Source: Aminomonas paucivorans DSM 12260 (GTDB taxonomy: Bacteria > Synergistota > Synergistia > Synergistales > Synergistaceae). From it: DNA of 64,000 nucleotides. The stretch covers positions 62,001-126,000 of the forward strand of contig NZ_CM001022.1 in the NCBI RefSeq assembly GCF_000165795.1, written 5' to 3'. The notes beneath the pieces are model-generated. The model did not search any database and was not told the DNA's origin. It worked only from the letters and a program-made list of their open reading frames with translations. The translations under genes and the position numbers were made by a program. Of the stretch, positions 46,549-64,000 are shown one piece after another. The number at the start of each line of letters is the position of its first letter. Within the stretch, counting starts at the first letter, position 1.

Positions 46549-47819
46549 GCGGACGGGGCATGGAAGAGGCGCGGCGACGGGACGGGGGGGACCCCCTGGC
46601 CCGGTTCCGGGGGCGGTTCCACATCCCCCCGGGGACCCTGTACATGGACGGCAACTCCCTGGGGCTGGCGTCGGAGGACGCCCTGGCCTCCCTGGAGCGG
46701 GCGGCGGCCTCCTGGCGGGATCTGGGGATCCGGGGCTGGCTGGAGGCGAAGCCCGACTGGTTCACCTACGGGGAGCGCCTGGGGGCCAAGATGGCCCCGT
46801 TGGTGGGGGCCTTCCCCGACGAGGTGGTGCTGGTGGGGTCCACCACCGCCAACCTCCACTCCCTGGCAGCCACCTTCTACCGCCCCCAGGGAACCCGTCG
46901 GCGGATCCTGGCGGATGAACTGAACTTCCCCTCGGACCTCTACGCCCTGGCCAGCCAGGTGCGCCTCCACGGGGGGGACCCGGAGCGGGACCTGATCCTG
47001 GCCCGAAGTGCCGATGGCCGCACCCTGGACGAGGAGGCTCTCATCGCCCTCATGGACGACACGGTGGCCCTGGCGGTGTTCCCCTCGGTGCTCTACCGCA
47101 GCGGCCAGCTCCTGGACCTGCGGCGGCTTGCCGAGGCGGCCCACCGGCGGGGCATCGTCATCGGTTTCGACTGCGCCCACTCCGCAGGGGCGGTGCCCCA
47201 TCGGCTCCATGACGACGACGCGGACTTCGCCTTCTGGTGCACCTACAAGCACCTCAACGGGGGCCCCGGGTCCCCGGCGGGGCTGTTCCTGCACCGGCGG
47301 CACTTCGGCAGGGAGCCCGGGCTGGCGGGGTGGTTCGGCACCGTGAAGGAGCGGCAGTTCGACCTGGCGGTGGACTTCGAACACCAGCCCAGCGCCGGGG
47401 GCTGGCAGATGGGCACCCCCTGCATCCTCTCCGCCGCCGCCCTGGACGGGGCCCTGGACCTCTTCGCCGAGGCGGGGATGGAATCGGTGCGGGCCAAGTC
47501 CCTGGAGCTTACCGGGTTCCTGCTGGACCAGGCGGAAGCCCGGCTGACCCCCCTGGGGTTCCGGGCGGGCACCCCCCGGGAACCGGAGCGCCGGGGCGGA
47601 CATGTGGCCCTGGAGCACCCGGAGGGCTGGCGGATCTGCTGCGCCCTCAAGGCCCGGGGCATCGTGCCGGACTTCCGTCCCCCCCAGGTGGTGCGTCTGG
47701 CCCCGGTGGCCCTGTACACCACCTTCGAGGAGGTGGAGCGCACCGTGGCGGCGCTGGAGGAAATCGTCCGAAACCGGAAATACGAGGCTTTCTCGGCAGC
47801 CCGGGCGGCGGTGTCGTAG
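46545..47819 (+). CDS. kynU: Kynureninase
   Basis: 424 residues, normal size. PLP enzyme of the kynureninase group: 'LYMDGNSLGLASEDALASLE', 'VVLVGSTTANLHSLAATFYR', 'VIGFDCAHSAGAVPHRL' (Asp that holds the pyridine N), 'FAFWCTYKHLNGGPGS' (PLP Lys), 'GWFGTVKERQFDL', and 'PSAGGWQMGTPCIL'. Splits kynurenine to anthranilate and alanine. No tryptophan dioxygenase or formamidase gene is near, so it may act on imported kynurenine or a related amino acid. Coupled to the MarR gene. Confidence 0.93.
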   Translation: MSGRGMEEARRRDGGDPLARFRGRFHIPPGTLYMDGNSLGLASEDALASLERAAASWRDLGIRGWLEAKPDWFTYGERLGAKMAPLVGAFPDEVVLVGSTTANLHSLAATFYRPQGTRRRILADELNFPSDLYALASQVRLHGGDPERDLILARSADGRTLDEEALIALMDDTVALAVFPSVLYRSGQLLDLRRLAEAAHRRGIVIGFDCAHSAGAVPHRLHDDDADFAFWCTYKHLNGGPGSPAGLFLHRRHFGREPGLAGWFGTVKERQFDLAVDFEHQPSAGGWQMGTPCILSAAALDGALDLFAEAGMESVRAKSLELTGFLLDQAEARLTPLGFRAGTPREPERRGGHVALEHPEGWRICCALKARGIVPDFRPPQVVRLAPVALYTTFEEVERTVAALEEIVRNRKYEAFSAARAAVS

Positions 47820-47825
47820 GGGTTT

Positions 47826-48073
47826 CGTGCGTCGATCCCTCAGCCGTCCATCCCGCTCCCTTTCCCCCTGCGGGGAAAATTCCATCTGACGGCCTTCGAA
47901 CGGCTGGGCCAGCTCGGAGCCATCCTAACGACGATCGTTTTTGGGGGAACCGCCGCAACCCTGGCGCTCCACGGCGCCAAAGGAGTAGCGATCATCCTGG
48001 CGGGATCCCCCTGGCGTCGATGATCCTGGCCTTTCTTGAGCAACGGCACATCTCACGCAAGAAGCAGGACTAA
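47826..48073 (+). pseudogene. Remnant of a small membrane protein with one frameshift
   Basis: Just after kynU an open frame without a clear start codon reads 'HLTAFERLGQLGAILTTIVF' and 'GTAATLALHGAKGVAIILAG'. Adding one G near 48002-48005 continues it as 'IPLASMILAFLEQRHISRKK' to a TAA at 48071, 3 bases before a terminator. The joined product would have two membrane helices and a basic tail. Either a broken gene or a G-run sequencing error; no RBS is evident. Family unknown. Confidence 0.45.
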
Positions 48074-48076
48074 CCT

Positions 48077-48104
48077 AGGCCGCCCCCCTCGGGGCGGCCT
48101 TTTT
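48077..48104 (+). terminator. Intrinsic terminator at the left edge of the defence island
   Basis: AGGCCGCCCC (48077-48086), CCTC loop, GGGGCGGCCT (48091-48100), then TTTT: a perfect 10-bp stem with T run. It ends the kynU transcription unit. Confidence 0.9.
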
Positions 48105-48497
48105 CAAGCCGATCCCCTCCTGTTGTTCCCTGCCTTCCGAATCCGCAAAGACGTCTTCCAGTGTTCGCAGGGCTTTCCCTTTCGATCCTCTCGTGGTTCC
48201 TTAAGCAAGGAAATGTTGCCTTGTATGGGAATCGTATTAGGGAACCGAGAGCGATTCATGATGAAACTCCATGTATGTGGTATACCTGGTGAGGTTGCCT
48301 TGCTCCTGCCCTGATGTCCGGCAGTTTACGTCCTTGCTCGCAGGTGGTCTTTGAGGCTTGAAACGGGTGTGGTGGTTTCCAGGTCAAGAGTGCGGGAGTG
48401 GTAGGTTGCATATGAGGGGTCCCGAAAAGCGGACCATGGGCTAAGCTAAGGGCGGAATTGGCGGTCACGAGCCTGGCTCAAAAGGAGGTCGCGCAAG
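48105..48497. other. 393-bp gene-free leader of the BREX-like locus
   Basis: Base composition drops sharply here. I see no convincing gene. It contains GGTCC-N8-GGACC (48418-48422 / 48431-48435), a possible regulator site, preceded by the hexamer pair TTGCAT / ATATGA region, and ends with AAAGGAGGT for brxF. It probably holds the island promoter; no tRNA or clear attachment repeat was found. Confidence 0.4.
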
Positions 48498-48971
48498 GTG
48501 GAACCGCTTGCGGATAGAGTCATACGAGGAATCAGCCAGGCTGCCGGGCGGTACTACCGGCTTGTCGTGCTGGTGGCCCCGGCTGGTGCGGGCAAGACCG
48601 CGGCACTCCAGGATGTCCACGAACGCACTGCGGTTCCTCTGATCAACGTCAATCTCGAACTTTCCCGACGTATGCTCGACCTCACGGAGCGGCAGCGGAC
48701 ATTGCTGTTGCCCCGCCTCCTCGCAGAGATTGTGGGCACATTCGCTTCCGATGTGGTTTTTCTGGACAACATCGAGGTTCTCTTCGATGTCTCGCTCAAG
48801 CAGGACCCGTTGCGGCTCCTGCAGGGACTCTCCCGGAACAGAACCGTGGTTGCGGCCTGGAGCGGCTCCGTCGACGGAGAGCACATGGTTTATGCGACGC
48901 CGGACCACCCCGAGCATAAACGATATCCCTTGCGGGATTTTCTGGTCGTGAACCCGGAGGCCGTTGCATGA
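48498..48971 (+). CDS. brxF: BREX-3 P-loop protein BrxF
   Basis: 157 residues, start GTG with AAAGGAGGT 8 bases upstream. '[20 protein letters not shown]' is the Walker A of this short ATPase; '[20 protein letters not shown]' the Walker B; '[20 protein letters not shown]' a conserved stretch. Size and position directly before the large DUF6079 gene are those of BrxF in type 3 BREX loci. Role in the complex is not established. Confidence 0.85.
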
Positions 48972-49005
48972 GGGCAAGGAGCGAAAGCGCAGGAGGGCAG
49001 AAACG

Positions 49006-52000
49006 ATGAAATACGGAGACTTGATCCAGTTCGAGCCTATCGAGTCCGTGGTCCAGCTGCGGGATGCCGACGAGGCCACCGTTGCCCGACAGCTTGTCCA
49101 GACCTACGTAATCTCCTCGGAAATGGCCGAGAAGTTGGTCAGCCTGGTCGTCCCTCAGCTTCAGTTCGACCAGCCCATGGATAACAAAGGGTTACTGGTC
49201 GTGGGCAACTACGGCACCGGAAAATCGCACCTCATGTCCGTGATCTCCGCCCTGGCTGAAAACGGCGACCTCGTGGCGCACCTGAACGATAAGAGCGTGG
49301 CAAGCGCCGTGAGCGGGATCAGCGGGCGCTTCAAGGTGATCCGGGCGGAACTGGAAGCGACCACAATGCCTCTGCGCGATTTTGTGTGCCAACAGCTTGA
49401 GGAGCACCTCGCCACATGGGGAATCTCGTTTTCGTTCCCACCACAAGAACAACTTTTGAGCCATAAGCGAGCCTTTGAAGAGATGATGTCTGCGTTTCAC
49501 CAAGAGTACCCCGATTATGGATTGCTTGTTGTGGTAGACGAATTGCTTGACTATTTGAGAACCCGAGACGACCACCAGATTATTCTGGATCTCAATTTTC
49601 TCCGTATTTTGGGTGAAGTATGCAAGGACTTGCGATTTCGTTTTATGGCGGGTGTCCAAGAGGCGGTTTTTGAATCAGGGCGTTTTCAGTTTGTTGCAGA
49701 CACGCTCCGCCGGGTGAAGGACCGCTTCGAGCAGATCCTCATCGCCCGCAAGGACGTCAAGTTCGTGGTGGCCGAGCGTCTGCTCAAAAAGACCGTCGAC
49801 CAGCAGGCGAAAATCCAGGGGTACCTGGCTCCTTTTGCCAAGTTTTATGGCCGGATGAACGAGCGCATGGACGAATTCGTGCGCCTCTTTCCCGTTCACC
49901 CCGACTACATCGACACCTTCGAACGGATCACCGCAGTGGAAAAACGCGAGGTACTCAAGACCCTGTCCCTGTCCATGAAGCGGCTCCTGGACCAGAACGT
50001 GCCAGAAGACCGGCCTGGAGTCATCGCCTATGACAGCTACTGGGCCAGCCTGCGCGAGGACTCGTCCTTCCGCACCGTTCCGGACATCAAGTCGGTCATT
50101 GATTGCAGCATGGTGCTGGAGTCGCGCATCCAGCAGGCCTTCACCCGTCCTGTCTACACCCCGCTGGCGACCCGACTCATCCACGCACTCTCGGTCCACC
50201 GGCTTACGACGGGCGATATCTACGCTCCTTTGGGTGCGACGGCGGAGGAGCTGCGCGACGGATTGTGTCTCTTCCAACCGGGTATCGAGGAACTAGGCGG
50301 AGATCCGGCCGATGACCTGCTTTCTCAGGTGGAGACCGTCCTGCGGGAAATCCACAAGACGGTGAGCGGGCAGTTCATTTCGTCCAATCCGGATAACCGC
50401 CAGTATTACCTGGACCTCAAGAAGACCGACGACTTCGACGCGCTGATCGAGAAGCGGGCCGAGAGCCTCGATCCTTCGCAACTCGACCGCTACTACTACG
50501 AAGCGCTCCGGCGAGTCATGGAGTGCACGGATCAGACCTACGTCACGGGCTACAAGATCTGGCAGCACGAGCTTGAATGGCTGGAGCGCAAGGCCGCGCG
50601 ACAGGGATACCTTTTCTTCGGTGCCCCCAACGAGCGCTCCACCGCGGTGCCGCCGCGAGACTTCTACCTCTATTTCCTCCAGCCCTTTGACGCGCCGCAT
50701 TTCAAGGACGAGAAAAAACCCGAAGAGCTGTTCCTGCGCCTGGTGAACATGGATGAGGGATTTCGCGTCGCCCTTCGAAACTACGCCGCCGCCCTGGACC
50801 TTGCATCCACCTCGTCGGGTCATGCCAAGTCCGCCTACGAATCCAAGGCATCGAATTCCCTGCGCGATCTCGTCCAGTGGCTCCAAAAGAACATGACCAC
50901 GGCTTTTGGGGCCACCTATCAGGGAAGGACCAAAGGGCTGACCGAATGGGTCGCCAAGGGGAAAACGATCCGAGAGCTATCTGGCATCCAATCCCATGAA
51001 CGAATCAACTTCCGCGATTTGGTGAACACCATCGCGGGTGTTTGCCTTGACGTACAGTTCCGGGATCAGGCTCCCGAATACCCGTTCTTCTCGGTGCTCA
51101 TCACGGGAGCGAACCGACCCCAGGCTGCGCAGGACGCCCTGCGTGCCATCGCCGGACAGAGTCGCACCAAACAGGCCACGGCGGTGCTGGATGCCCTGGA
51201 GCTTCTCGACGGGGAGCGCCTGGATCCCTCCCGGTCCAGATACGCTCAATACATCCTTGAAGTTGCCCAAAAAAAGGGGCCCGGACAGGTCGTCAACCGA
51301 GCCGAGCTGATCCAAGACGTTCTTGGCGTGGAATACCTGGCACCGCAACGGTTGCGCCTCGAACCCGAATGGGTCGTGGTGGTGCTGGCAGCACTGGTCT
51401 ACGCCGGCGAGGTGGTCCTCTCCGTCCCGGGCAGGAAGTTCGATGCCACGGATCTGGCGCAACTGGCCGGGACGGGCATCGACGAACTGACCCAGTTCAA
51501 GCACATCGAACGGCCCAAGGATTGGAACCTCCCGGCACTCAAGGCGCTTTTCGAACTGCTCGACCTCATACCGGGCATGGCGCAACTGGTTACCCAGGGC
51601 AAGGACGAACCGGTTCAGGCGCTGCAGAAGGCCGTCACCAACGCCGTCGAGCGGCTGGTGCTGGTGCAGCGGAGCATGCAGACCGGATTGTTCTTCTGGG
51701 GCCGCAGCCTGCTGGGTGAAGAGGAGGTCAAGAAGCTCCGCGCGAAACTGGACGAGACCAAGGTCTTTCTCGAATCCCTTCAGGTCTACACCACCACCGG
51801 TAAGCTCAAGAACTTTCGCTACGATGTCTCGGAAGTGACCGCACAACGGAACGGACTCGAATCCCTTGCCGAAATCAGGTCGCTTGAGGAACTGGTGGGG
51901 GATCTCGGCTCGATGGCCTCGTACCTCTTCACCGCCGAGGCCGTCCTGCCCGCCGGACATGAATGGATCGACAAGATGAGGGCTACGCGGGGCGAAATCC

Positions 52001-52737
52001 TCGACCAGATCGGGGACCCGGCCAAGCGGAGCGCTGCGGCATTCCGCCAGCAGACGAAGGCAAAGCTCGGCGACCTCAAGAGGGCCTACCGGCAGGCCTA
52101 CCTTTCCCTGCACGCCAAAGCGCGTCTCGGGGTGAACGAGGACAAGCGCAAGGCTCGGCTCGCGGTTGACGAGCGGCTTAAGAACCTGCAGAAACTCTCC
52201 ACCATCGACCTGATGCCCCGTCAGCACCTCTCGGATTTCCAGAGCCGGCTTGCCGAATTGAAGAGCTGCTTTGTGCTCACGGAACAGGAACTGGAGGCGT
52301 CGCCGGTCTGCCCGCATTGCAACTTCAAGCCGGGCGCGGAACCGCCCACGGTCCCTGCTTCGGCGACGCTGGATGCCCTGGACGGGGAGCTCGACAAGCT
52401 CGTGGAGGATTGGACCCGGACGCTGCTTGCCAACCTCGATGATCCCGCCACCAGGGAGAACCTGAGCCTGCTCAAGCCTGAGCCGCGCGTGCTGGTGGAC
52501 GGCTTCATCAAAAAGCGGGCCCTGCCGGACGACCTGGATCCGCATTTTCTCCACGCCCTGCAGGAAGTGCTTTCCGGCCTCACCAAGGTCTCGGTCAAGA
52601 CCGCGGACCTGCGCAACGCCCTGCTCTTGGGCGGCTCCCCGGCCACCCCGACGGAGATGAGGAAGCGGTTCGAGGAATACCTGGACGGGTTGGTCAAAGG
52701 CCAAGAACCCGGCAAGGTAAGAATCGTGCTGGAGTAG
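49006..52737 (+). CDS. brxC: BrxC-type large ATPase (DUF6079), BREX-3
   Basis: 1243 residues; ATG at 49006 with AGGAGG 9 bases upstream. N-terminal AAA-type domain: '[20 protein letters not shown]' (Walker A, about 65) and '[20 protein letters not shown]' (Walker B, about 180). The rest is long helical sequence ending in a zinc-ribbon-like pair ('[13 protein letters not shown]', about 1110) and a helical tail. This is the BrxC/PglY protein of BREX, an ATPase needed for exclusion of phage DNA. The stretch 49430-49690 is noticeably richer in A and T than the remainder of the gene. Confidence 0.88.
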
Positions 52738-52746
52738 GGATTTCCC

Positions 52747-54420
52747 ATGGACAGGAGCGAACACGAAATCAAGACGATCCTGGATCGGGGAGAGACCCTG
52801 ATAACCGAGTTTAAAAGCGACACCAAGAGGTTGCCGGATCGCGATCTTGTGGCGGCGGTGGTGGCCATGGCCAATACCGAAGGTGGACTGATTCTTTTGG
52901 GAGTCGAGGATGACGGAAGCGTTACGGGCGTTCAGCCCAGTCATCGAGATACCACGGGACTCAAGGCGCTGATCGCCAACCGCACCAGCCCATCGGTAGC
53001 CATCTCCACGGAAATCATCGAGCGGGACGAGACGAGGATTCTCGCCATCACCGTGCCGAAGTCTCGTTCCATCGTGTCAACCACGGACGGACTCGTGGTG
53101 CGTCGCCGCCTCATGGCTTCCGGCAGCCCCGAGGCCGTGCCCTTTTACCCTCACGAGTTTATCCAGCGCCAGGCCAGCTTGGGGTTGGTTGATCCCTCGG
53201 CCATGCCTCTGGTGTCCCTCAGCGCCGAAGACCTGAACCCCCTTGAACGACAACGCATACGCGAAGCCATCCGCCGCTACGGCGGTGATACGACGCTCCT
53301 GCCTTTGGCCGACGAAGAACTGGACGGGGCATTGGGGCTTGTGACGGTCGTGGAGGGGGTTCGCCGCCCGACCGTTGCGGGGTTGCTCCTTCTGGGGCAC
53401 GAAGAAACGATCCGTCGGCATATTCCCGCCCACGAAGTCGCCTTTCAGGTCCTGGAGGGGACAGGGGTCCACGTCAACGAGTTCTTCCGCAAACCCCTTC
53501 TGCAAACCTTCGAGGAAGTGGAGCTGCGTTTCAAGGCCCGGGTTGTGGAACAGGAAATCCAAGTCGGCCTTTTTCGGGTACCCATCCCCAACTATGACCG
53601 CCGGGCCTTTCGGGAAGGGTTCGTCAATGCGCTGGTCCATCGGGACTATGCGCGATTGGGTGCCGTGCACGTGCGGCTGGATGACGACGGTCTCGCCATT
53701 GTCAGTCCGGGAGGGTTCATCGAAGGCGTGACCCTGCACAATCTGCTGGTGGCACCGCCGCGCTCCCGGAATCCTATCCTGGTCGATGTGGTCAAAAGAA
53801 TCGGCCTGGCCGAACGCACCGGACGAGGCATCGACCGGATTTATGAAGGGATGCTGCGTTATGGCCGACCGGAGCCGGACTACTCCATGTCGGACGCTTT
53901 TTCCGTGGCGTTGTGCATGTCTCGCGCCGATGGGGATCCCTCTTTTCTTGAGATGGTCCTTGCCTATGAGTCGCGCACCAATGGGTCGATGCCCCTCGAT
54001 AGCTTGATCATCCTTTCCCGGTTGCATCAGGAACGCCGCCTCACCACAGCCGATTTGGCCGCAAGCACCCAGAAACCGGAATCCTCGACGCGCGCTACCC
54101 TTGAAAAGCTGTTGGAGGCCGGGATGATCGAAGCGCAGGGCACGGGGCGCGGACGATCCTATATGCTTGGTGCCAAGGTTTACAAGAAAACCGGTCAGAA
54201 GGCAGCCTATGTCCGACAGGCCGGTTTCGATTCCCTCCAGCAGGAGCAGATGGTGCTGGCCTACATCGGGAAACATGGTTCCATCAAACGGGGCGAGGCG
54301 ATGGAGTTGTGCCGGTTGACGGGTCCCCAGGCCTACTACCTGCTTCATCGTCTCGCCCAACAAGGGAAGATCCGCAAGCAGGGGGAAAGGCGCCATGCGC
54401 TCTATACACGAGAACCATAA
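52747..54420 (+). CDS. AlbA_2/HATPase_c_4 ATP-binding protein (RecG-like regulator) in the BREX locus
   Basis: 557 residues. Residues 1-125: AlbA_2 domain ('LITEFKSDTKRLPDRDLVAA', 'VVAMANTEGGLILLGVEDDG', 'VPFYPHEFIQRQASLG'). Residues 270-385: HATPase_c_4 ('REGFVNALVHRDYARLGAVH', 'SPGGFIEGVTLHNLLVAPPR', 'AERTGRGIDRIYEGMLRYG'). The end has two winged-helix-like segments ('TTADLAASTQKPESSTRATL' and 'GSIKRGEAMELCRLTGPQAY'). Such proteins are usually DNA-binding regulators or small-molecule-responsive ATPases. It lies between brxC and the methylase, 10 bases after brxC, so it is cotranscribed and may regulate or license the system. Confidence 0.82.
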   Translation: MDRSEHEIKTILDRGETLITEFKSDTKRLPDRDLVAAVVAMANTEGGLILLGVEDDGSVTGVQPSHRDTTGLKALIANRTSPSVAISTEIIERDETRILAITVPKSRSIVSTTDGLVVRRRLMASGSPEAVPFYPHEFIQRQASLGLVDPSAMPLVSLSAEDLNPLERQRIREAIRRYGGDTTLLPLADEELDGALGLVTVVEGVRRPTVAGLLLLGHEETIRRHIPAHEVAFQVLEGTGVHVNEFFRKPLLQTFEEVELRFKARVVEQEIQVGLFRVPIPNYDRRAFREGFVNALVHRDYARLGAVHVRLDDDGLAIVSPGGFIEGVTLHNLLVAPPRSRNPILVDVVKRIGLAERTGRGIDRIYEGMLRYGRPEPDYSMSDAFSVALCMSRADGDPSFLEMVLAYESRTNGSMPLDSLIILSRLHQERRLTTADLAASTQKPESSTRATLEKLLEAGMIEAQGTGRGRSYMLGAKVYKKTGQKAAYVRQAGFDSLQQEQMVLAYIGKHGSIKRGEAMELCRLTGPQAYYLLHRLAQQGKIRKQGERRHALYTREP

Positions 54421-54497
54421 GCTATGCATATGTGTTATCGTTGCTTTGCACGAGTGTATGGCGAGTGCATCGAAATCCCGGGAATGAAGGGGAAGTC

Positions 54498-57230
54498 ATG
54501 AAGAACGATCCCAACAACCAGAGCGATCTCTTTCAAACGTCCCCATCCGCGAGCGATTCGGGATCTGTGGAATGCCTGGGCATGACGTTTCCCAGCGATG
54601 AGGCGCGGCGAAAGCACTTCCTTGCCCTTCTGCGGGAGAAACTCCAGGAACCGGAGTTCCGAAAGGGCGAAGGATTCCCCATCGGCTCGGACGAGGACAT
54701 CCTGGCGCTGTCCGATCCGCCCTACTACACCGCCTGCCCGAACCCCTGGATTGCCGACTTCGTCAGCCACTACGGCAAGCCCTACGACCCGAGCACGCCC
54801 TACCGCCGGGAGCCCTTCGCCGTGGATGTGAGCGAGGGAAAGACGGACCCCATCTACAAGGCCCATTCGTACCACACGAAGGTGCCCCATCTGGCGATCA
54901 TGCCGTCCATTCTGCACTACACCGAACCGGGGGATGTGGTTTTGGACGGGTTTTGCGGTTCGGGCATGACGGGGGTGGCCGCGCAGATGTGCAGCCACCG
55001 GGGGGTGGTCGAATCGCTGGGCTACCGGGTGGACGACGACGGAACCATCCTGCGGCGGGAGGCTGCCGAAAACGGCGAGGCGGACTGGAAACCCGTTTCG
55101 AAGCTTGGTTCACGCAGAGTCGTGCTGAACGACCTGTCCCCCGCCGCGACGTTCATCGCCGCCAACTACACCCTGCCCTTTGACGTCCGGGAGTTCGCCC
55201 GCGCGGGAAGACGGATCCTCGATGAAGTGGAAAGCGAAATCGGATGGATGTACCGGACGCTCCGGACCGATGAAAAAGGGGCGACCGGCGAATCGCCGGA
55301 AACCTGGGCCAAAGCGCTCGATGCCTGCCGGACGACGGAAGAAATCCGTTTCCTTCTCGCTTCTCGGCCCTCGGCGTTCGGCACCGTCGAGTACACCGTC
55401 TGGAGCGAGGTGTTCACCTGTCCCGACTGCTCGGGGGAAGTGGTTTTCCTGGACGAAGCCCTCGACGACGAGACCAAGCGCGTCCGGGAAACCTTTCCGT
55501 GCCCCCACTGCGGGAGCGAATTGACCAAGAAGCGCCTGGAGCGTTGTGTGGAAACGCGCCTCGATCCTCAATCCCATACAACCATTCGCACCCCGAAACG
55601 GCGGCCGTCGCTGATCTCGTATGGGATGGGGAAAAAGCGACATGAAAAGGTCCCGGATGCATTCGACCTGAAGGTTCTCAAGAAGATTGAAGAACTGCCT
55701 TTCCCGCAGGAATTGCCTACCGACCGGATGATGCACGCCCCGGAAGACGAAGAGAATTGGGGGGATAAATGGCGTGCGGGCACCGCTTCCTTCACCCACG
55801 TCCATCATCTGTTCCTGCCCCGGGCCGCCCACGCATTAGCCCTGCTTTGGCGCAAGGCCATTGCGCATCCCGACGCGAGAATGCGGAATATGTTGCTGTT
55901 CTTTGTGGAGCAGGCGATATGGACAACATCCGTGCTTAATAGATACCAACCGCAAGGATATAAGCAGGTTAACAAATATTTGCCGGGGGTATATTACTTA
56001 CCCTCTCAAAATTGTGAATTATCGCCGTGGTATGCGATAGCTGCTCGTGGGGAGCGAATTGCCAAGACGTTCACAAACTTCTCCTCGATGCAGGGAAATA
56101 CTGGGATTTCTACGAACACAGCAACTTGTCTTAGAGTGCCGGATGAAGGAATCGACTACATCTTCACTGACCCACCTTTCGGAGATAATCTGGCCTACGG
56201 AGAATTGAATTTCCTCGTCGAATCCTTCCATCGATGCTTCACCAACATGGAGCAGGAAGCCATCGTCAGCCCCCACCAGAAAAAGGGGCTTTCCGAATAC
56301 CAGGGACTCATGCGCCGATGCTTTGCGGAGTATTGTCGTGTGCTGAAACCGGGACGATGGATGACCGTGGTGTTTCACAACTCCCGTAACGCGGTCTGGA
56401 CCGCCATTCAGGAGTCTCTGCAAGTTGCCGGATTCGTCGTCGCCGACGTCCGGGTCCTGGATAAGCAACAAGGCTCGTTCAACCAGGCTGTCGCAACAGG
56501 TTCGGTCAAGCAGGATCTCGTCATTTCCGCCTACAAACCCAACGGGGGGCTGGAAGACCGATTCAAGCTGGAGGCGGGGACGGAGAACGGGGTCTGGGAC
56601 TTCGTCCGCACCCATCTGCGCCAACTGCCGGTGTTTGTATCCCGGGACGGTCTGGCCGAAGTGGTTGCCGAACGCCAGAATTACCTGCTCTTCGACCGCA
56701 TGGTGGCCTTCCACGTCCAGCGCGGCGTCACCGTGCCCCTGTCCGCGGCGGAGTTCTATGCCGGGCTGCCCCAGCGCTTTTCTGAGCGGGACCGCATGTA
56801 CTTTCTTCCCGAGCAGACCGCCGAGTACGACAAAAAGCGGCTGACCGTCCGGGAGGTCTTGCAGCTCCAGTTTTTCGTCATCGACGAGTCTTCGGCCATC
56901 CAGTGGCTCCGGCAGCAGCTTCTGAACAAGCCCCAGACCTTCCAGGAACTCCATCCGCAGTTCCTCAAAGAGATCGGCGGCTGGCAAAAGCACGAGAAGC
57001 CGTTGGAGCTCTCCGAGCTGCTGGAACAAAACTTTCTTCGCTATGACGGCAAGGGAGAGGTGCCAAACTCGATCCATGGCTACCTCTCGTCGAATTTCAA
57101 AGAGCTTCGCAACCTCCCCAAGGACGACGAGAACCTCCGCACCAAGGCCAAGGACCGTTGGTATGTGCCCGACCCCAACAAGGCCAGAGATCTGGAGGGC
57201 GCCTCTAGAAATCCGACCATCTGCGACTGA
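54498..57230 (+). CDS. PglXI-like DNA methylase, C-terminus replaced by IS sequence
   Basis: 910 residues, the last 10 from the IS. Motif order: a 'DPPYYTACPNPW' element at about 78, AdoMet motif I 'DGFCGSGMTGVAA' (about 150), a Cys4 ribbon ('FTCPDCSGEVVF' with 'FPCPHCGSELTK', about 310-340), and the catalytic 'FTDPPFGDNLAYGELNFLVE' (DPPF, about 555). This is the adenine-methylase type of BREX-3. An IS5-family element enters after codon 900; 78 native residues remain as an orphan fragment at 58498-58731 in the correct frame. Whether the shortened protein is active is unknown. An AT-rich patch covers 55890-56180, between the motifs. Confidence 0.85.
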   Translation: MKNDPNNQSDLFQTSPSASDSGSVECLGMTFPSDEARRKHFLALLREKLQEPEFRKGEGFPIGSDEDILALSDPPYYTACPNPWIADFVSHYGKPYDPSTPYRREPFAVDVSEGKTDPIYKAHSYHTKVPHLAIMPSILHYTEPGDVVLDGFCGSGMTGVAAQMCSHRGVVESLGYRVDDDGTILRREAAENGEADWKPVSKLGSRRVVLNDLSPAATFIAANYTLPFDVREFARAGRRILDEVESEIGWMYRTLRTDEKGATGESPETWAKALDACRTTEEIRFLLASRPSAFGTVEYTVWSEVFTCPDCSGEVVFLDEALDDETKRVRETFPCPHCGSELTKKRLERCVETRLDPQSHTTIRTPKRRPSLISYGMGKKRHEKVPDAFDLKVLKKIEELPFPQELPTDRMMHAPEDEENWGDKWRAGTASFTHVHHLFLPRAAHALALLWRKAIAHPDARMRNMLLFFVEQAIWTTSVLNRYQPQGYKQVNKYLPGVYYLPSQNCELSPWYAIAARGERIAKTFTNFSSMQGNTGISTNTATCLRVPDEGIDYIFTDPPFGDNLAYGELNFLVESFHRCFTNMEQEAIVSPHQKKGLSEYQGLMRRCFAEYCRVLKPGRWMTVVFHNSRNAVWTAIQESLQVAGFVVADVRVLDKQQGSFNQAVATGSVKQDLVISAYKPNGGLEDRFKLEAGTENGVWDFVRTHLRQLPVFVSRDGLAEVVAERQNYLLFDRMVAFHVQRGVTVPLSAAEFYAGLPQRFSERDRMYFLPEQTAEYDKKRLTVREVLQLQFFVIDESSAIQWLRQQLLNKPQTFQELHPQFLKEIGGWQKHEKPLELSELLEQNFLRYDGKGEVPNSIHGYLSSNFKELRNLPKDDENLRTKAKDRWYVPDPNKARDLEGASRNPTICD
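57192..57197 (+). repeat. Target-site duplication, left copy (CTGGAG)
   Basis: CTGGAG ends the native methylase sequence and is repeated at 58492-58497 beyond the element. It encodes Leu-Glu in the methylase frame on both sides, so it is a duplication of target sequence produced by insertion. Confidence 0.75.
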
Positions 57231-58491
57231 AGGAGCCCCATCAAGGGTAGTACACTGAACCAATCGGGAGTCTCCCGGGAGAAGAAACACCGAAGCCCAC
57301 CAGGAGAGGTGGTCCTGAGAAGATGCGCCAGGGGAAACTGTTCTTCGAAGAGATGGCCTATCAGCGACTGGACAAGGGTAAGGATCCCTTGGTGACCCTT
57401 GCGGAGACGGTGGACTGGCGTATTTTCGAAGAACCCCTTCGGGCCTTCCGGGAGAGCCTGCGGACCACCGACTCCCCTGCGGGTCGCAAACCCTTCGACC
57501 CCCTGTTGATGTTCAAGATCCTGGTGCTCCAGTCCTTGTACAACCTGTCGGACGACGCCATGGAATACCAGATTCGAGACCGCCTCTCCTTCCAGCGCTT
57601 CTGCGATCTTTCCCTGGAGGACCGGGTCCCCGACGCCAAGACGCTGTGGCTGTTTCGGGAACAGTTGACCCAAGCGGGTCTGGTGGAACTCCTCTTCGCC
57701 CGGTTCGATGAAGCCCTTCGCCAGATGGGGTTGGAGGCCCGGAAGGGACAGATCGTGGATGCCTCCCTGGTCAGCGTCCCCATCCAGAGAAACAGCCGGG
57801 AGGAGAACCGACAGATTCGGGAAGGCAACCCACCCCAGGAATGGAGCGAAGCCAAGTCTCGCCAGAAGGACACCGAAGCGAGATGGACTGTGAAGAACGG
57901 CAAGAGCACCTTCGGGTACAAGAACCACATCGAGGCGGACGTCTCCTGCAAACTCATTCGGCGTTATGCCGTCACCCCCGCCTCGGTGCACGACAGCCAG
58001 GTTTTCAAGGAATTGCTGGATCCCGGGAACACCAGCAAAGACGTCTGGGCAGATGCGGCCTACCGTTCCGCTTCCCACCTGGAGTACCTGCGCCAGGAGG
58101 GGTACCGGGAGCACATCCAGAGGAAGGGGACCTCGGGGCACCCCCTGACCGGATGGGAGAAACAGGGCAACCGCACCCGATCTCGAACCCGCAGCCGGGT
58201 GGAACACATCTTTGCGGCCCAGAAACAGCAGGCGGGGACCCTTCTGCTGCGCAGCATCGGCCTGGCCCGAGCAAAGGCCCGCATCGGCCTTCGCAACCTG
58301 ATCTACAACCTCCAGCGCTTCACCTACTTGGTGACGCAGGTCTACGTATGGGCCTGAGGGGCAAGAGTGGCCCCTGATCCCTGGGAAAAGCCCTCCAGGG
58401 GGAGAGCCGAGCCCCAGCAGAGCCTACATGGGGGTGCACCCCGTCTGTTGCACGCAAAAGCGGTTCGAAAAACGGGTTTTGTAGAGGTTCC
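57198..58491 (+). mobile_element. IS5-family insertion sequence, 1294 bp
   Basis: Ends are imperfect inverted repeats: GGCGCCTCTAGAAATCCG on the left (57198-57215) against GGAACCTCTACAAAACCCG read inward from 58491. One transposase gene fills it. Flanked by the direct repeat CTGGAG. Six bases is not the usual duplication length of the best-known IS5 groups, so the subgroup is uncertain; a shorter true duplication with chance identity cannot be excluded. The 134 bases after the transposase contain only the right end. Confidence 0.85.
57323..58357 (+). CDS. IS5-family DDE transposase
   Basis: 344 residues, apparently intact. N-terminal IS5 domain ('MRQGKLFFEEMAYQRLDKGK', 'DPLLMFKILVLQSLYNLSDD', 'DRLSFQRFCDLSLEDRVPD'), then DDE residues in 'GQIVDASLVSV' (D), 'KDVWADAAYRSASHLEYL' (D) and 'RTRSRVEHIFAAQKQQAG' (E). 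ATG at 57323 follows AGGAGAGG. Because it is undamaged the element may still be able to move. Confidence 0.93.
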   Translation: MRQGKLFFEEMAYQRLDKGKDPLVTLAETVDWRIFEEPLRAFRESLRTTDSPAGRKPFDPLLMFKILVLQSLYNLSDDAMEYQIRDRLSFQRFCDLSLEDRVPDAKTLWLFREQLTQAGLVELLFARFDEALRQMGLEARKGQIVDASLVSVPIQRNSREENRQIREGNPPQEWSEAKSRQKDTEARWTVKNGKSTFGYKNHIEADVSCKLIRRYAVTPASVHDSQVFKELLDPGNTSKDVWADAAYRSASHLEYLRQEGYREHIQRKGTSGHPLTGWEKQGNRTRSRTRSRVEHIFAAQKQQAGTLLLRSIGLARAKARIGLRNLIYNLQRFTYLVTQVYVWA

Positions 58492-58734
58492 CTGGAGAAG
58501 CTCCGGGAACGGTCGCTGCTCCGGGAGTTCGACGCGTACAAGTCCCCCGGCACGAAGAAGCTCAGGCAGTTCCGCCACGAGGCGGTTCGGGCGGGATTCA
58601 AGAAAGCCTGGCAGGAACGCGATTACGCCGTCATCGTCGCCGTGGCCGGCAAGATTCCCGAGAGCGTCCTCCAGGAAGACCCCAAGCTCCTCATGTGGTA
58701 CGACCAGGCAGTCACCCGCTCGGAGGAGGCGTGA
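58492..58734 (+). pseudogene. Orphan 3' end of the methylase gene, beginning with right CTGGAG repeat
   Basis: In the same frame as the methylase once the element and one repeat are removed: 'LEKLRERSLLREFDAYKSPG', 'LRQFRHEAVRAGFKKAWQER', 'DYAVIVAVAGKIPESVLQED', ending 'WYDQAVTRSEEA' and TGA at 58732. No start codon or RBS of its own. It shows that the intact gene encoded 978 residues and that the downstream gene started 3 bases later. Confidence 0.85.
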
Positions 58735-58737
58735 AGC

Positions 58738-59586
58738 ATGCACTTTTATTATTTGGACGAGGCTGGTTGTACCGGATGTGACTTCACAAACCAAGAACAA
58801 CCTATATTTGTCCTTGGTGGCATAAGCGTGCGCGATGAAGGCTGGAACTCCACGCAAGAGGCGATGGTGGCGATAATTAAGAGTTATTTTGGTGGAGCAA
58901 TTCCTGGTAATTTTGAATTACACGCAACGCAACTGCTTTCTCCAAATGGAGATGGGCATTTTGAAGGTCATGAGAGAGAGCGTCGAAACAAACTCGCGAA
59001 GGATATCCTTGGTTTATTGGCTGGACGTAGCCACGATGTCCACTTGTACGCCATAGATAAGTCTAAGTTGAATTCTATTTCCTGCGGCGTGGAGATGCCC
59101 TACAATACCAAAACACCCTATTATTTGGCATACGATTACCTAATGACGTACATCAATTGGTTTTTGAAGACAAAACTTGGTCAATCAGCTCGCGGTATGC
59201 TCATCATCGATGCAAAAGACCAGTATCATGCCGAAATTGAGCGAATTACCCGGATAAGACGTTTTGAAGGACCTGTATCCCGTCGTATTAAGTGGATTGT
59301 GGAGTTTAGCTACCCTATAGATTCTAAAAAGAACCCAATGGTTCAGTTGTCGGACTTGATTGTGTTTTGTTCCAAAAAATTTCTGGAAATCGACGGTGGT
59401 TATCGCGAAACCTACCCGGAAAATGTAAAAAAATTCTACGCAGAGTGTTATATGCTGATACACAATCGTATTCGAAGGAAGGGCCTGGTTGACCGAGAAG
59501 GGCGAGACATGGGCCAAATGAATAGTTTTCTGAGGGATATTCAGTCAAAGCCGGTTGATCGATGGAAAAAGAAATACAATATTTGA
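58738..59586 (+). CDS. DUF3800 domain protein
   Basis: 282 residues. Begins 'MHFYYLDEAGCTG', the DUF3800 signature (Y-x-D-E-S/A), with further acidic positions in 'GMLIIDAKDQYHAEI' and 'PMVQLSDLIVFCSKK', the RNase-H-like metal-binding layout suggested for this family. Many members lie in defence islands. The gene is far more AT-rich than its neighbours (many TTT, AAT, ATA codons), so it has a separate origin. It stands exactly where brxHII is expected between pglX and pglZ. Start ATG is 3 bases after the methylase stop, with GGAGGAGG upstream inside the methylase end. Confidence 0.8.
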   Translation: MHFYYLDEAGCTGCDFTNQEQPIFVLGGISVRDEGWNSTQEAMVAIIKSYFGGAIPGNFELHATQLLSPNGDGHFEGHERERRNKLAKDILGLLAGRSHDVHLYAIDKSKLNSISCGVEMPYNTKTPYYLAYDYLMTYINWFLKTKLGQSARGMLIIDAKDQYHAEIERITRIRRFEGPVSRRIKWIVEFSYPIDSKKNPMVQLSDLIVFCSKKFLEIDGGYRETYPENVKKFYAECYMLIHNRIRRKGLVDREGRDMGQMNSFLRDIQSKPVDRWKKKYNI

Positions 59587-59777
59587 ATATTGTCGGATGG
59601 TGTTATGGCCTTGGGCGCGGATAGCTCTGTCGGGTTATCAAGCTCAGATGTTCTGGGATGAGGAGAAACCGCCCAAATTGGAATCCTGGCCAACGATCAG
59701 GTGCGCGTGACCTCCCAAAGTCCCCATTTATCCGGACAGGGTATCGTTGCTTGTGTGCCAGGTGAAGGGTGGTGTCC

Positions 59778-61784
59778 ATGAGTAGCTGGCGCGATCAAAT
59801 CCTGGGGGAATTCACCCCGAAGGTCGTCCGTTTGACCCTGGTGGCCGATCCGGACGGACTCCTCCTCGAAGAAGGGATTCTCGAAGGCATCCGCGAGCGG
59901 GGATTCGAGCTGATCCCGTTTGAAGATCCCATCGCGTTCCGTTACGCTTACGAGTCGAAGTTCCGCTCCCGCTGGGACCGGGGCGAGCACACGGACCTGG
60001 TCGTCGTGTTGCGCTCCCAGGGCAGCGACCTCGGAGGGGTGCCCTACGACCTCCTTCAGGCAGGGCGCAGGCTTTCCTTCAGCCTGGGCGACCTCTTCCC
60101 GAATCTGAGCTATCCGGTTGTGGCTGCTTTGGATCGCGGGGATCTGGACGCTTTGTATGAGGCGCAACAACGGCATGTCCCCGGTCTCCTGGGCGAGAAC
60201 GCGACGAAGGAGTTCGTCCTCCGGCACGTCTTTGAAATCGCGCCCGAGCTGATCAAACAGCCATCGGACCTCCTGCGGGTGCTGCTGCGTCGTCACTACC
60301 GCGGACAGAGAATCCCGGCGGATCTCGATGGGCGCTTCCTCCAGCTTCTGCGCCAGAACAACGTCTTCGACGATTGGCCCCTCGAGACGCTGGTCCCGGA
60401 TCGGGAGGTTTTTTTCGCCTTTCTCCAGGAGCGCTGGCCGGTTTTCCTGGATCGGGAAGCCGCCATCGGGACATCCAGGGTTTGCCAAAAGAAAGATCCC
60501 CAGGAGTTCTCCATCCACGGGCCTGTCGCACTTCCCTTCGACCATCATGATGTCCGGGTCTACATCGACAATCTCTTCGTTGAGGGGCTGCTGCACTCCG
60601 TTCCCCACGAGCATGCGGACACCCTGTCGAAAACGTGGGTGGCCATTGGAGTTCGGACCGTTCCCTTCGAAGACAGGTTCCGTCGTCTGGGCAAGCTGAT
60701 CGACAATCTGGAGGTGTCCATTCCGGCCGAGGACGCGAAGCACACGGATTGGTTCCACTTTGCCCGCGGATGGGCGGAGGCGATCCTGCTGGCGCACGAT
60801 CCGGCCGAGGCGATTCCCGAAATGACGAGCGAACGCATCCGGGCCTTGCAGGCACAGGTGGATGCCGGTTTTGCAGGTTGGCTCTTTAAGAGGTATGCGG
60901 GGCTTGTCAATCTGCCACCGGTGCCTCCGGTCATGTTGCATCACCTCCCGCGGTTTCTTGCCCGCCAAATGGGAGAAGACCGCACCGCCAAGATGGCACT
61001 GATCGTGGTGGACGGCCTTGCCTTGGACCAATGGCTGGTGGTCCGGGAAGCACTTGCCTCAAAACAGCCAGGACTGCGATTCCGAGAGCAGGCAGTCTTT
61101 GCCTGGGCCCCGTCTCTCACCTCTGTCTCGCGACAGGCGACCTTCTCTGGCAAGGCGCCGCTCTTTTTCCCGGACAGTATCCAGACCACGGACAAGGAGC
61201 CATCTCTCTGGGCGCAGTTTTGGGCGGATCAGGGGCTTATGCCCCATGAGGTTGTCTACCTCAAAGGGCTGGGGGACGCTGGGCTGGAGAACCTTTCCGA
61301 GGCGCTTTCTCATCCCCGGGCAAGGGTCGCCGGGCTGGTTGTGGACAAGGTCGACAAGATCATGCACGGGATGGAAATGGGTACCGCCGGGATGCACAAC
61401 CAGGTGTGCCAATGGGCCAAGCAGCCGTACCTGAACGCACTCCTCAATTTGCTCTTGGATCGAGGTTTTCGCGTCTATCTGACTTCCGATCACGGCAACG
61501 TAGAGGCTATCGGTTGTGGTCGTCCCTCCGAAGGGGCTGTGGCGGATCTCCGCGGAGAACGAGTCCGCGTCTATCCCGACGCGGTCCTTCGCGGCAAAGT
61601 GAAGGAGCGCTTCCCTGCGGCGTTGGAATGGGGAACCGCGGGGCTCCCGGAGGATTTCTTTGCTCTGCTGGCCCCTGCTCGGCAGGCGTTTGTCCAAGAA
61701 AGGCAGCACACGGTGAGCCACGGAGGGGTTTCCGTGGAGGAACTCATCGTCCCTCTTGTCCAGATCGAGAGGCGGAGCGAATGA
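59778..61784 (+). CDS. pglZ: BREX-3 phosphatase-domain protein PglZ
   Basis: 668 residues, ATG at 59778 (GTGs at 59769 and 59772 also in frame). Alkaline-phosphatase-superfamily core: 'KMALIVVDGLALDQWLVVRE' (about 415), 'FAWAPSLTSVSRQATFSGKA', 'FRVYLTSDHGNVEAIGCGRP' (metal ligands, about 570), and the end 'TVSHGGVSVEELIVPLVQI'. PglZ occurs in all BREX types. It overlaps the next gene by ATGA. Returns to moderately high GC after the DUF3800 gene. Confidence 0.93.
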   Translation: MSSWRDQILGEFTPKVVRLTLVADPDGLLLEEGILEGIRERGFELIPFEDPIAFRYAYESKFRSRWDRGEHTDLVVVLRSQGSDLGGVPYDLLQAGRRLSFSLGDLFPNLSYPVVAALDRGDLDALYEAQQRHVPGLLGENATKEFVLRHVFEIAPELIKQPSDLLRVLLRRHYRGQRIPADLDGRFLQLLRQNNVFDDWPLETLVPDREVFFAFLQERWPVFLDREAAIGTSRVCQKKDPQEFSIHGPVALPFDHHDVRVYIDNLFVEGLLHSVPHEHADTLSKTWVAIGVRTVPFEDRFRRLGKLIDNLEVSIPAEDAKHTDWFHFARGWAEAILLAHDPAEAIPEMTSERIRALQAQVDAGFAGWLFKRYAGLVNLPPVPPVMLHHLPRFLARQMGEDRTAKMALIVVDGLALDQWLVVREALASKQPGLRFREQAVFAWAPSLTSVSRQATFSGKAPLFFPDSIQTTDKEPSLWAQFWADQGLMPHEVVYLKGLGDAGLENLSEALSHPRARVAGLVVDKVDKIMHGMEMGTAGMHNQVCQWAKQPYLNALLNLLLDRGFRVYLTSDHGNVEAIGCGRPSEGAVADLRGERVRVYPDAVLRGKVKERFPAALEWGTAGLPEDFFALLAPARQAFVQERQHTVSHGGVSVEELIVPLVQIERRSE

Positions 61785-62539
61785 CCAGGGGGATCGACCA
61801 GATCGGATTCAGTCAGCGGGTACGTCTGGAATGGCTTGAGCAGACGGCCAACCTGGTCCTGGCAGGGAACGACAAGGCTTCTGTCAAGGATGCCTTGCAG
61901 GAGCTGCTGAAGGATAAGGTGTCCGTAGGAGGCCAGGCCGAACGAGGCAATCGGGAGAAAATCATCACGATTCTCCTGAAGACGTGGTTTTCGGTTCCGA
62001 GGGAGCTTGAGCCGTTGCGCGTCGAAGGTCTGGAACTCCTCAAAGGTGTTCCTCGACGCGATCATCTGGCCGTTCACTGGGGGATGGTCATGGCTGCCTA
62101 CCCGTTCTGGTCGGAGGTTGCCATCCAAACCGGTCGTCTTCTGCGGCTTCAGGGTTCTGTTGCTGCGATGCATCTTCAGCGCCGGATCCGCGAGCAATAC
62201 GGCGAACGGGAGACGGTTTTCCGAGCGGCCCGCCGCGTGCTGCGTTCGTACCTGGACTGGGGTGTGCTTCAGGAGACCGGCGCAAAAGGTGTCTATTCCG
62301 CCGGGATAACGCTGGCCGTTGAGGATTCTCGACGGATCGCTTGGTTGGCAGAAGCATCTCTCCACGCTCGGGCAAGCGGTTCCGCTCCGCTGAAAGATCT
62401 GATCGCCAGCCCGAGCCTCTTTCCGTTCCGGATCAGGCTGGTTCAAGCCGAAAGCCTTGTGGCCGCGTCATCCAGACTCGATCTTCTCCGCCACGGGTTG
62501 AACGACGACCTGGTCATGCTGCGGAAGCAGATTGGATAA
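61781..62539 (+). CDS. Last BREX-3 gene, in the brxA position
   Basis: 252 residues; start in the ATGA overlap with pglZ. Mostly helical: 'RLEWLEQTANLVLAGNDKAS', 'REKIITILLKTWFSVPRELE', 'HWGMVMAAYPFWSEVAIQTG', 'RAARRVLRSYLDWGVLQETG'. I see no motif that proves BrxA (DUF1819, a small DNA-binding protein), but size, helical character and place after pglZ agree. It could instead be a type-specific accessory. Last gene of the island. Confidence 0.6.
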   Translation: MTRGIDQIGFSQRVRLEWLEQTANLVLAGNDKASVKDALQELLKDKVSVGGQAERGNREKIITILLKTWFSVPRELEPLRVEGLELLKGVPRRDHLAVHWGMVMAAYPFWSEVAIQTGRLLRLQGSVAAMHLQRRIREQYGERETVFRAARRVLRSYLDWGVLQETGAKGVYSAGITLAVEDSRRIAWLAEASLHARASGSAPLKDLIASPSLFPFRIRLVQAESLVAASSRLDLLRHGLNDDLVMLRKQIG

Positions 62540-62617
62540 TTCTGGAGTGAAGACAGATGCCTGCCTCTCAATAAGAGGAAGGTGCTGGAAAGGAGCCTCA
62601 GGGAGCACTTTGTCCCT

Positions 62618-63979
62618 TCAATTCACCAGAAAGAACACCCCCGCGCCAGCTAGGTAGCCCAGAAAAGCCAGGGGGGAGAAGCGCTTCAGGTAGTAGGAGA
62701 AGGGGATCTTCTCCAGGCCCATCACCGTGACCCCCGAGGCGGAGCCGATGATGAGCAGGCTGCCTCCGGTGACGGCGCAGTAGGCCAGGAAGGTCCAGAA
62801 GACCCCGTTGGCGGCGAAGGCTCCCGTGTGGGCCACGGGGTACATGCCCATGGTCCCCGCCACCAGGGCCACGTTGTCCAGGAAGGACGAGCAGATTCCC
62901 AGGACGAAGGCGATGGTCTCGGGTCGGGGGAACCAGGCGTTGAGGAGCTTCGACAGGTCTCCCAACTGTCCCGCCGTCTCCAGGGCCCCCACGGCCATGA
63001 GGATCCCCAGGAAGAAGAGCACCGTGGTCATGTCCACCCGGGAGAAGGACCCCCCCACCCGAAGGGCCTGCATCTCCTCCTCCGGGCAGTGCCAGTAGAG
63101 CCGGTCCGTGTAGACCCACAGGACCACCAGTCCCAGCAGCACCCCCATGAAGGCGGGCAGTTCCAGGACGCTCTGGAGCACCGGCACCAGGGCCAGGGAC
63201 AGGAGGGCCGTCAGGAGGACCACGTCCCGGGCGCGCCGGGAAATTCGCCCGTCCGCCTCCGGGGTCGTCCGGGCCACCGGGGCGTCCTGGGGCAGCTGGA
63301 AGGTGGCCAGGGCCAGGGGCACCAGCAGCATGGCCAGGCTGGAGGGGAGCACGTGGACCACCTGGTGCCCCGCCGTGAGGTTTTCCCCGGTCCACAGCAG
63401 CAGGGTGGTCACGTCCCCGATGGGGGACCAGGCCCCTCCTGCGTTGGCGGCGATGACCAGCATGCAGGCGTGCACCAGCCGGGTGTCCCGGTCCGGCACC
63501 AGCTTGCGCAGGATGGCCACCATGACGATCACCGTGGCCAGGTTGCCCAGCAGGGCGGAGAGGAAGAAGGCGACCCCGGAGGCCGTCCAGAGGAGTTTTC
63601 GCTGGTTCCGGGCGGTGAGGCGCCCCGAGAGGGCCTGGAAGCCCCCGTGGGTGTCCACCAGGTTGATGATGGCCATGGAGCCCAGGACGAAGAACAGGGT
63701 CCCCGACACGTCCCCCAGGTGTTGGGTCAGGGCGAACTCGGTGAACTGGTACACCTGGTCGTGGAAGGGCAGGGCCGCGAAGTTGGGGAAGCCCTGGATG
63801 AGCCGGGCGATCACCGGATTGGGGTGGTTTCCGAAGATCCCCGTGGCGTCCACCAGGAGCACCCCCCAGAGGAGGATGCACAGCCCCAGGGCCGTGGCGG
63901 CCTTGTTCACCCGGAGGCGTTCCTCGAAGGCCACCCCCAGGATCCCCAGGACGAAGAGGAGAGGCATCAGCGCGTACAT
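62618..63979 (-). CDS. nhaD: NhaD-family sodium:proton antiporter
   Basis: 453 residues, about 12 helices, complete. Ion-transporter superfamily type: 'SGTLFFVLGSMAIINLVDTH', 'ALLGNLATVIVMVAILRKLV', 'MLVIAANAGGAWSPIGDVTT' (the N-x-G-G-x-W-S-P-I-G-D core of NhaD), 'CSSFLDNVALVAGTMGM' and 'TGGSLLIIGSASGVTVMGLE' (second repeat). GC content and codon use are again those of the chromosome. Convergent with the last island gene across 78 bases. Confidence 0.92.
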   Translation of the reverse strand: MYALMPLLFVLGILGVAFEERLRVNKAATALGLCILLWGVLLVDATGIFGNHPNPVIARLIQGFPNFAALPFHDQVYQFTEFALTQHLGDVSGTLFFVLGSMAIINLVDTHGGFQALSGRLTARNQRKLLWTASGVAFFLSALLGNLATVIVMVAILRKLVPDRDTRLVHACMLVIAANAGGAWSPIGDVTTLLLWTGENLTAGHQVVHVLPSSLAMLLVPLALATFQLPQDAPVARTTPEADGRISRRARDVVLLTALLSLALVPVLQSVLELPAFMGVLLGLVVLWVYTDRLYWHCPEEEMQALRVGGSFSRVDMTTVLFFLGILMAVGALETAGQLGDLSKLLNAWFPRPETIAFVLGICSSFLDNVALVAGTMGMYPVAHTGAFAANGVFWTFLAYCAVTGGSLLIIGSASGVTVMGLEKIPFSYYLKRFSPLAFLGYLAGAGVFFLVN

Positions 63980-64000
63980 GGTTCCACCGCCCTTCGCAAG

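Follow-up and report, generated by a model that had tools for sequence, protein, structure and literature searches.

Relics of a deleted brxHII helicase gene and an IS-interrupted pglX in a type 3 BREX locus of Aminomonas paucivorans with a probable DUF3800 passenger

In the window, i.e., the 64,000-nucleotide stretch of Aminomonas paucivorans DSM 12260 DNA analysed here, from a genome of 2.63 Mb in a single contig, a BREX type 3 (BREX-3) locus occupies positions 48498–62539. This locus is very probably best explained as a system whose helicase gene, brxHII, was deleted, whose methylase gene, pglX, was broken by an insertion sequence (IS), and whose DUF3800 gene is a passenger. Judging from the scars left in the DNA, the helicase gene is lost by deletion, not by replacement. 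All brx genes and accessory genes lie on the plus strand in the order brxF, brxC, a Schlafen/AlbA-type accessory gene, pglX, DUF3800, pglZ, brxA. The brx genes were assigned with PADLOC and NCBIfam models, to which BrxF, BrxC, PglXI, PglZ and BrxA matched over their full or near-full length. As in BREX type 3 generally (brxF, brxC, pglXI, brxHII, pglZ, brxA), five of the six genes are found here in the standard order, including BrxF, the BrxC/PglY ATPase of the type 3 group, a type 3 PglZ and BrxA; in contrast, an intact PglXI methylase and a BrxHII helicase are missing, brxHII being reduced to two stumps and pglX being split by the IS, and a DUF3800 gene occupies the cargo slot. The features are as follows.

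48498–48971, plus strand: brxF, intact (NF033453, 189.8 bits, cut-off 50; PDLC02496, 240.8 bits)
49006–52737, plus strand: brxC (DUF6079), intact, full length (PDLC02482, 1991 bits over 1–1243; PF19557, 1841 bits)
52747–54420, plus strand: accessory gene with SLFN_AlbA_2, HATPase_c_4 and winged-helix parts (PF04326, 65 bits; PF13749, 65 bits)
54498–57196, plus strand: pglX (PglXI) 5′ part, ending ...KARDLE (PDLC02541, 1279 bits, profile positions 2–843 of 919)
57193–57196 and 58493–58496: left and right copies of the target-site duplication (TSD) TGGA, from comparison of IS copy flanks
57197–58492, plus strand: IS5-family insertion sequence, transposase at 57323–58357 (NF033581, 288.7 bits, cut-off 140)
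58493–58734, plus strand: pglX 3′ fragment encoding the last 77 residues, in frame with the 5′ part once the IS is omitted
58738–59586, plus strand: DUF3800 gene, intact, 282 aa, cargo (PF12686, 58.8 bits, cut-off 21)
59598–59663, plus strand: brxHII 5′ relic, about codons 5–26 (shuffle test score; alignment with locus L041)
59723–59784, plus strand: brxHII 3′ relic, keeping the original stop that overlaps the pglZ start (brxHII tails of relatives; shuffle test score)
59778–61784, plus strand: pglZ, intact (NF033449, 846 bits, cut-off 250)
61781–62539, plus strand: brxA, intact (PDLC02444, 339.6 bits over 1–250)

The domain architecture of the accessory gene between brxC and pglX has been described as a BREX auxiliary RNase (PMC12839542), and relatives of 63–68% stand at the same place in loci L124, L063 and L078, with an 88% fragment in L129. 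In 57150–59900, scans for promoter and terminator consensus sequences found no more than in shuffles, and an Rfam search of 47500–64000 gave zero matches.

In relatives whose PglZ is 76–88% identical to that of the window, the gene before pglZ encodes a protein of about 950 aa that matches the PADLOC BrxHI/BrxHII model with 1593 bits. In the window, two short brxHII relics lie between DUF3800 and pglZ, namely about the first 20 codons (about 66 nt) and about the last 19 codons (62 nt). The 49 bases before pglZ are 80–83% identical to the brxHII 3′ ends of L041, L042, L064, L044 and L115 (blastn of 59729–59800), and the tail relic keeps the same frame and the same overlapping stop as the relatives (YPDRVSLLVCQVKGGVHE versus YPEMVPLLVIRVEGGVHE). 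The head relic, aligned with L041, carries a CAG-to-TAG nonsense change and a −1 frameshift. When 59587–59777 was shuffled 400 times with dinucleotides preserved, none of the 400 shuffles matched either relic score, the local score being 57 for the head against a shuffle maximum of 36, and 51 for the tail against 35. The statement of the first-pass annotation that no helicase lies in the island was borne out for an intact brxHII, and this extends to the whole genome, which was searched with the BrxHII model; however, the helicase is not cleanly absent, as head and tail relics remain. The best two matches of the model in this genome scored 54 bits over 138 positions and 29 bits over 88, so that a move of brxHII to elsewhere in the genome, the finding that had been named as one that would overturn the earlier reading, was rejected. 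The 54-bit match was rejected as a BrxHII since it is an SCO1167-type SNF2 helicase. An SNF2 helicase of 1027 aa, SCO1167/SCO6262-like and below the family cut-off (650.7 vs. 1200 bits), is encoded at 7491–10574 of the window, 40 kb from the BREX locus, and is likewise no BrxHII.

The closest guide to the ancestral arrangement is L041 (contig JAJVHX010000021.1), whose PglZ is 88% identical to the window PglZ and in which DUF3800 is followed by a full-length brxHII and then by pglZ. Its contig edge falls inside DUF3800, so that the pglX side lies outside the contig and the comparison covers the last 28 residues, which are 68% identical to the window DUF3800; L041 is the sole such relative found. 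Compared with L041, the window lacks about 2.7 kb between the two brxHII stumps. Because L041 has DUF3800, full-length brxHII and pglZ in this order, DUF3800 appears to be cargo beside the helicase.

The stumps have decayed further since. At first and second codon positions without variation among relatives, changes were found at 8 of 42 positions in the brxHII relics versus 42 of 1096 in pglZ, whose third positions were changed at 38 of 235; the same statistic in the helicase-bearing loci L044, L051 and L052, which are of similar divergence, resembles that of the window pglZ. These counts, which are small and come from a branch that includes time before the deletion, suggest that the stumps have reached roughly the neutral level of their branch, with pglZ constrained.

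A feature missing from the first-pass annotation is the IS5-family element of 1296 bp that interrupts pglX. The identity of PglXI is clear, the gene being cut at about position 843 of the 919 positions of PDLC02541, and omitting the IS restores an open frame of 978 aa with a single terminal stop. The "methylase stop" of the first-pass annotation, the TGA at 58732–58734, ends only the pglX 3′ fragment, whose DNA shares 72–85% identity with the 3′ ends of pglX in most BREX-3 loci. Several copies of the element exist: 12 matches, fragments included, were found in the genome, and two further full-length copies encode a transposase of 100% protein identity; the IS ends were fixed by comparing the flanks of IS copies. 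Its transposase score above the NF033581 cut-off, imperfect terminal repeats and 4-bp target duplication show nothing unusual for an IS5-family insertion sequence. Related copies and fragments are grouped at 640–652 kb of the genome. As the pglX frame runs unbroken through the empty site, the IS seems to have arrived recently compared with the other decay. The IS splits off the conserved C-terminal 77 residues of PglX, whose C-terminal region, according to a published description, consists of three helix-turn-helix DNA-binding domains (PMC12839542), and the insertion presumably inactivated PglX. Both methylase motif regions remain in the truncated PglX, which might retain some activity.

The history that best fits these features begins with an ancestor of the ordinary order brxF-brxC-pglX-[cargo]-brxHII-pglZ-brxA, with a mobile RNase-H-like DUF3800 gene directly upstream of brxHII, as L041 and the relics indicate. 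An internal deletion then took most of brxHII, leaving the 5′ stump beside DUF3800 and the 3′ stump with the pglZ translation start, after which the stumps appear to have decayed while pglZ stayed under purifying selection. The later insertion near the 3′ end of pglX, which is directly visible, severed its conserved, presumably DNA-binding part. Because brxHII is deleted and pglX is cut by the IS, the present BREX-3 locus is probably non-functional.

How often brxHII is lost elsewhere was surveyed in 91 pglZ-anchored loci, which were picked by PglZ similarity and include MAGs. Among evaluable BREX-3 loci, the gene was defective or absent in 13 of 70 for brxHII, 4 of 54 for pglX and 1 of 81 for brxA, counts that assembly breaks may inflate; within this sample, brxHII is thus the one among the core genes that is most frequently found broken or absent. 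On a quickly built PglZ tree, the 12 helicase-defective rows need 10 changes, six of which are forced by well-supported branches, indicating that brxHII is lost repeatedly, in at least six independent changes. Remnants of brxHII were found at the same place in L104 (a head-to-tail fusion), L060 and L107 (tails), and L111 and L137 (heads), and partial genes in L066 and L097; they were sought in L118, L129 and L048, and none was found there. The published survey reported BrxHII in 77% of type 3 loci, leaving 23% without the helicase (PMC12839542), which is in line with the counts obtained here. Like those helicase-lacking loci, the window locus has no intact BrxHII and keeps the remaining components; what differs is that its origin by internal deletion is readable from the scars, and L104 shows the same fusion of head and tail. 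The scars thus show directly that helicase-less BREX-3 loci arise by deletion, and do so repeatedly, not by gene replacement.

Three of the helicase-less loci deserve mention for their layout. L129 (G019:C310) has the same gene order with pglX followed directly by pglZ, without helicase, cargo or stump, and an apparent second PglX-like ORF lies downstream of its brxA. In L118 (Sporomusa ovata DSM 2662), the slot holds an OLD-type ATPase gene and a gene of 360 aa without Pfam or PADLOC match, and BrxHII was looked for elsewhere and not found. Between pglX and pglZ, L048 has a 535-aa ORF (8360–9967) that likewise matches no Pfam or PADLOC model.

We consider it rather unlikely, although several observations favour it, that a helicase-less set of BrxF, BrxC, PglX, PglZ and BrxA stayed functional until the IS hit pglX, or that it persists with the truncated PglX. 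Consistent with such continued function, pglZ and brxA are intact, the dN/dS-like ratios of the window branch from triple comparisons are far below 1 (0.10–0.13 for pglZ, 0.11–0.20 for brxC and 0.11–0.22 for brxA), and the relic appears about as decayed as pglZ third positions. Eight loci besides the window combine an intact PglX with a defective brxHII, and the published 77% frequency of BrxHII points the same way. However, the window-branch ratios are 2–4 times those of short sister branches in most comparisons, and the end branch of the window PglZ on the tree is 0.14 versus about 0.02, both of which fit a partial relaxation; moreover, the branch also spans time before the deletion. Among the helicase-defective rows, PglZ end branches that are long compared with their neighbours were seen for the window, L118, L060, L129 and L097, which may reflect relaxed constraint or thin sampling.

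The repeated losses raise a testable question, namely whether BREX-3 immunity requires BrxHII. It is at present an unlikely proposition that BrxHII is dispensable in type 3 BREX, with many lineages deleting brxHII independently, leaving scars, and with the other components selected as a working helicase-less system; if so, the helicase would possibly be a phage-targeted or a costly component.

Turning to the DUF3800 gene of the brxHII-deleted, IS-broken locus, its start 3 nt after the methylase stop and its AT-richness, both noted earlier, were confirmed, its GC content being 42.9%, versus about 60% for the brx genes on either side and 70.6% for positions 1–47000 of the window. The gene has its own ribosome-binding site. 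Its close relatives, with 47–55% full-length identity, stand alone; they are a Pf filamentous phage gene (49%), tailed-phage genes (47–50%) and a single gene in genome G477. An IMG/VR search found nothing with the single-protein query and six phage loci with a two-row profile; in these six phage contigs the relatives are single genes, one of which adjoins a tape-measure gene on the opposite strand. Because the close relatives found in G477 and in phages (temperate and filamentous) have no BREX genes next to them, the DUF3800 gene needs no BREX.

Six acidic residues (D7, E8, E60, D158, D195 and D206) are invariant in a subfamily alignment of seven rows. A sequence search found no solved DUF3800 structure. 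The AlphaFold model is of moderate confidence (mean pLDDT 74.6), and its best structural match is RNase HII (Foldseek E 1.2e-3, probability 0.99; VIA Z 7.0, where a Z under 8 can reflect a common arrangement). The RNase-H-like character that had been suggested for this protein is thereby moderately supported at the level of the fold, as the literature also supports such a fold for other DUF3800 proteins (PMC10910872). Among these, the Cas12a2-linked TPR-DUF3800 proteins (PMC10910872) share with the window protein the PF12686 match and probably the RNase-H-like fold, whereas the window protein has no TPR part and no CRISPR association. Most likely, DUF3800 is a predicted RNase-H-type nuclease that serves as a stand-alone accessory or defence gene and may act, metal-dependent, on phage or host nucleic acid.

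The place in which this gene sits is commonly used: the pglX–brxHII junction is occupied by at least one gene in 43 of the 47 loci that have pglX and a full-length brxHII, with slot genes mostly beginning no more than about 40 nt from the pglX stop, and it is the standard cargo slot of BREX-3. The slot contents in the examined loci include OLD-type ATPase pairs, an ATPase/RNA-ligase trio, IetS and a GmrSD-type gene. The junction is, therefore, a place to seek accessory defence genes, of which the phage-borne DUF3800 subfamily is one such passenger. The position shared with these genes, together with the concept of auxiliary effectors (PMC12839542), lends some appeal to a toxin or abortive effector that the locus retains because it comes into action once BREX is blocked, as has been suggested for other nucleases carried as BREX cargo; however, L041 is the sole BREX-linked relative, and we regard this role as improbable.

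It is highly improbable that DUF3800 took the place of brxHII and contributes a nuclease step to a BREX-3 variant, as the intact gene, its ribosome-binding site and operon-like spacing with pglX, its conserved acidic residues and its RNase-H-like model might suggest, since brxHII stumps lie downstream of it, it coexists with full-length brxHII in L041, neither the other helicase-less loci examined nor 27 of the 28 BREX-3 genomes searched have it, and its relatives are free-standing. The "clean gene replacement" of the first-pass annotation is accordingly contradicted, and a recurrent partnership of DUF3800 with helicase-less BREX-3 found no support, the search for other BREX-3 loci with DUF3800 having returned L041 only. 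The other proposal made there, cargo of a decaying system, agrees with the relic brxHII, the IS-split pglX and the free-standing relatives; as a passenger, DUF3800 would have ridden into the locus and outlasted BREX-3, rather than substituting for the helicase. A literature search gave no text linking BREX with DUF3800, and the gene was not found in the 187 other Synergistota genomes searched. The A. paucivorans genome itself contains a second, unrelated-looking DUF3800 gene (L167:7236–8063, genome 1181241–1181903, 81 bits), with an AAA-ATPase-like ORF about 2 kb upstream of it.
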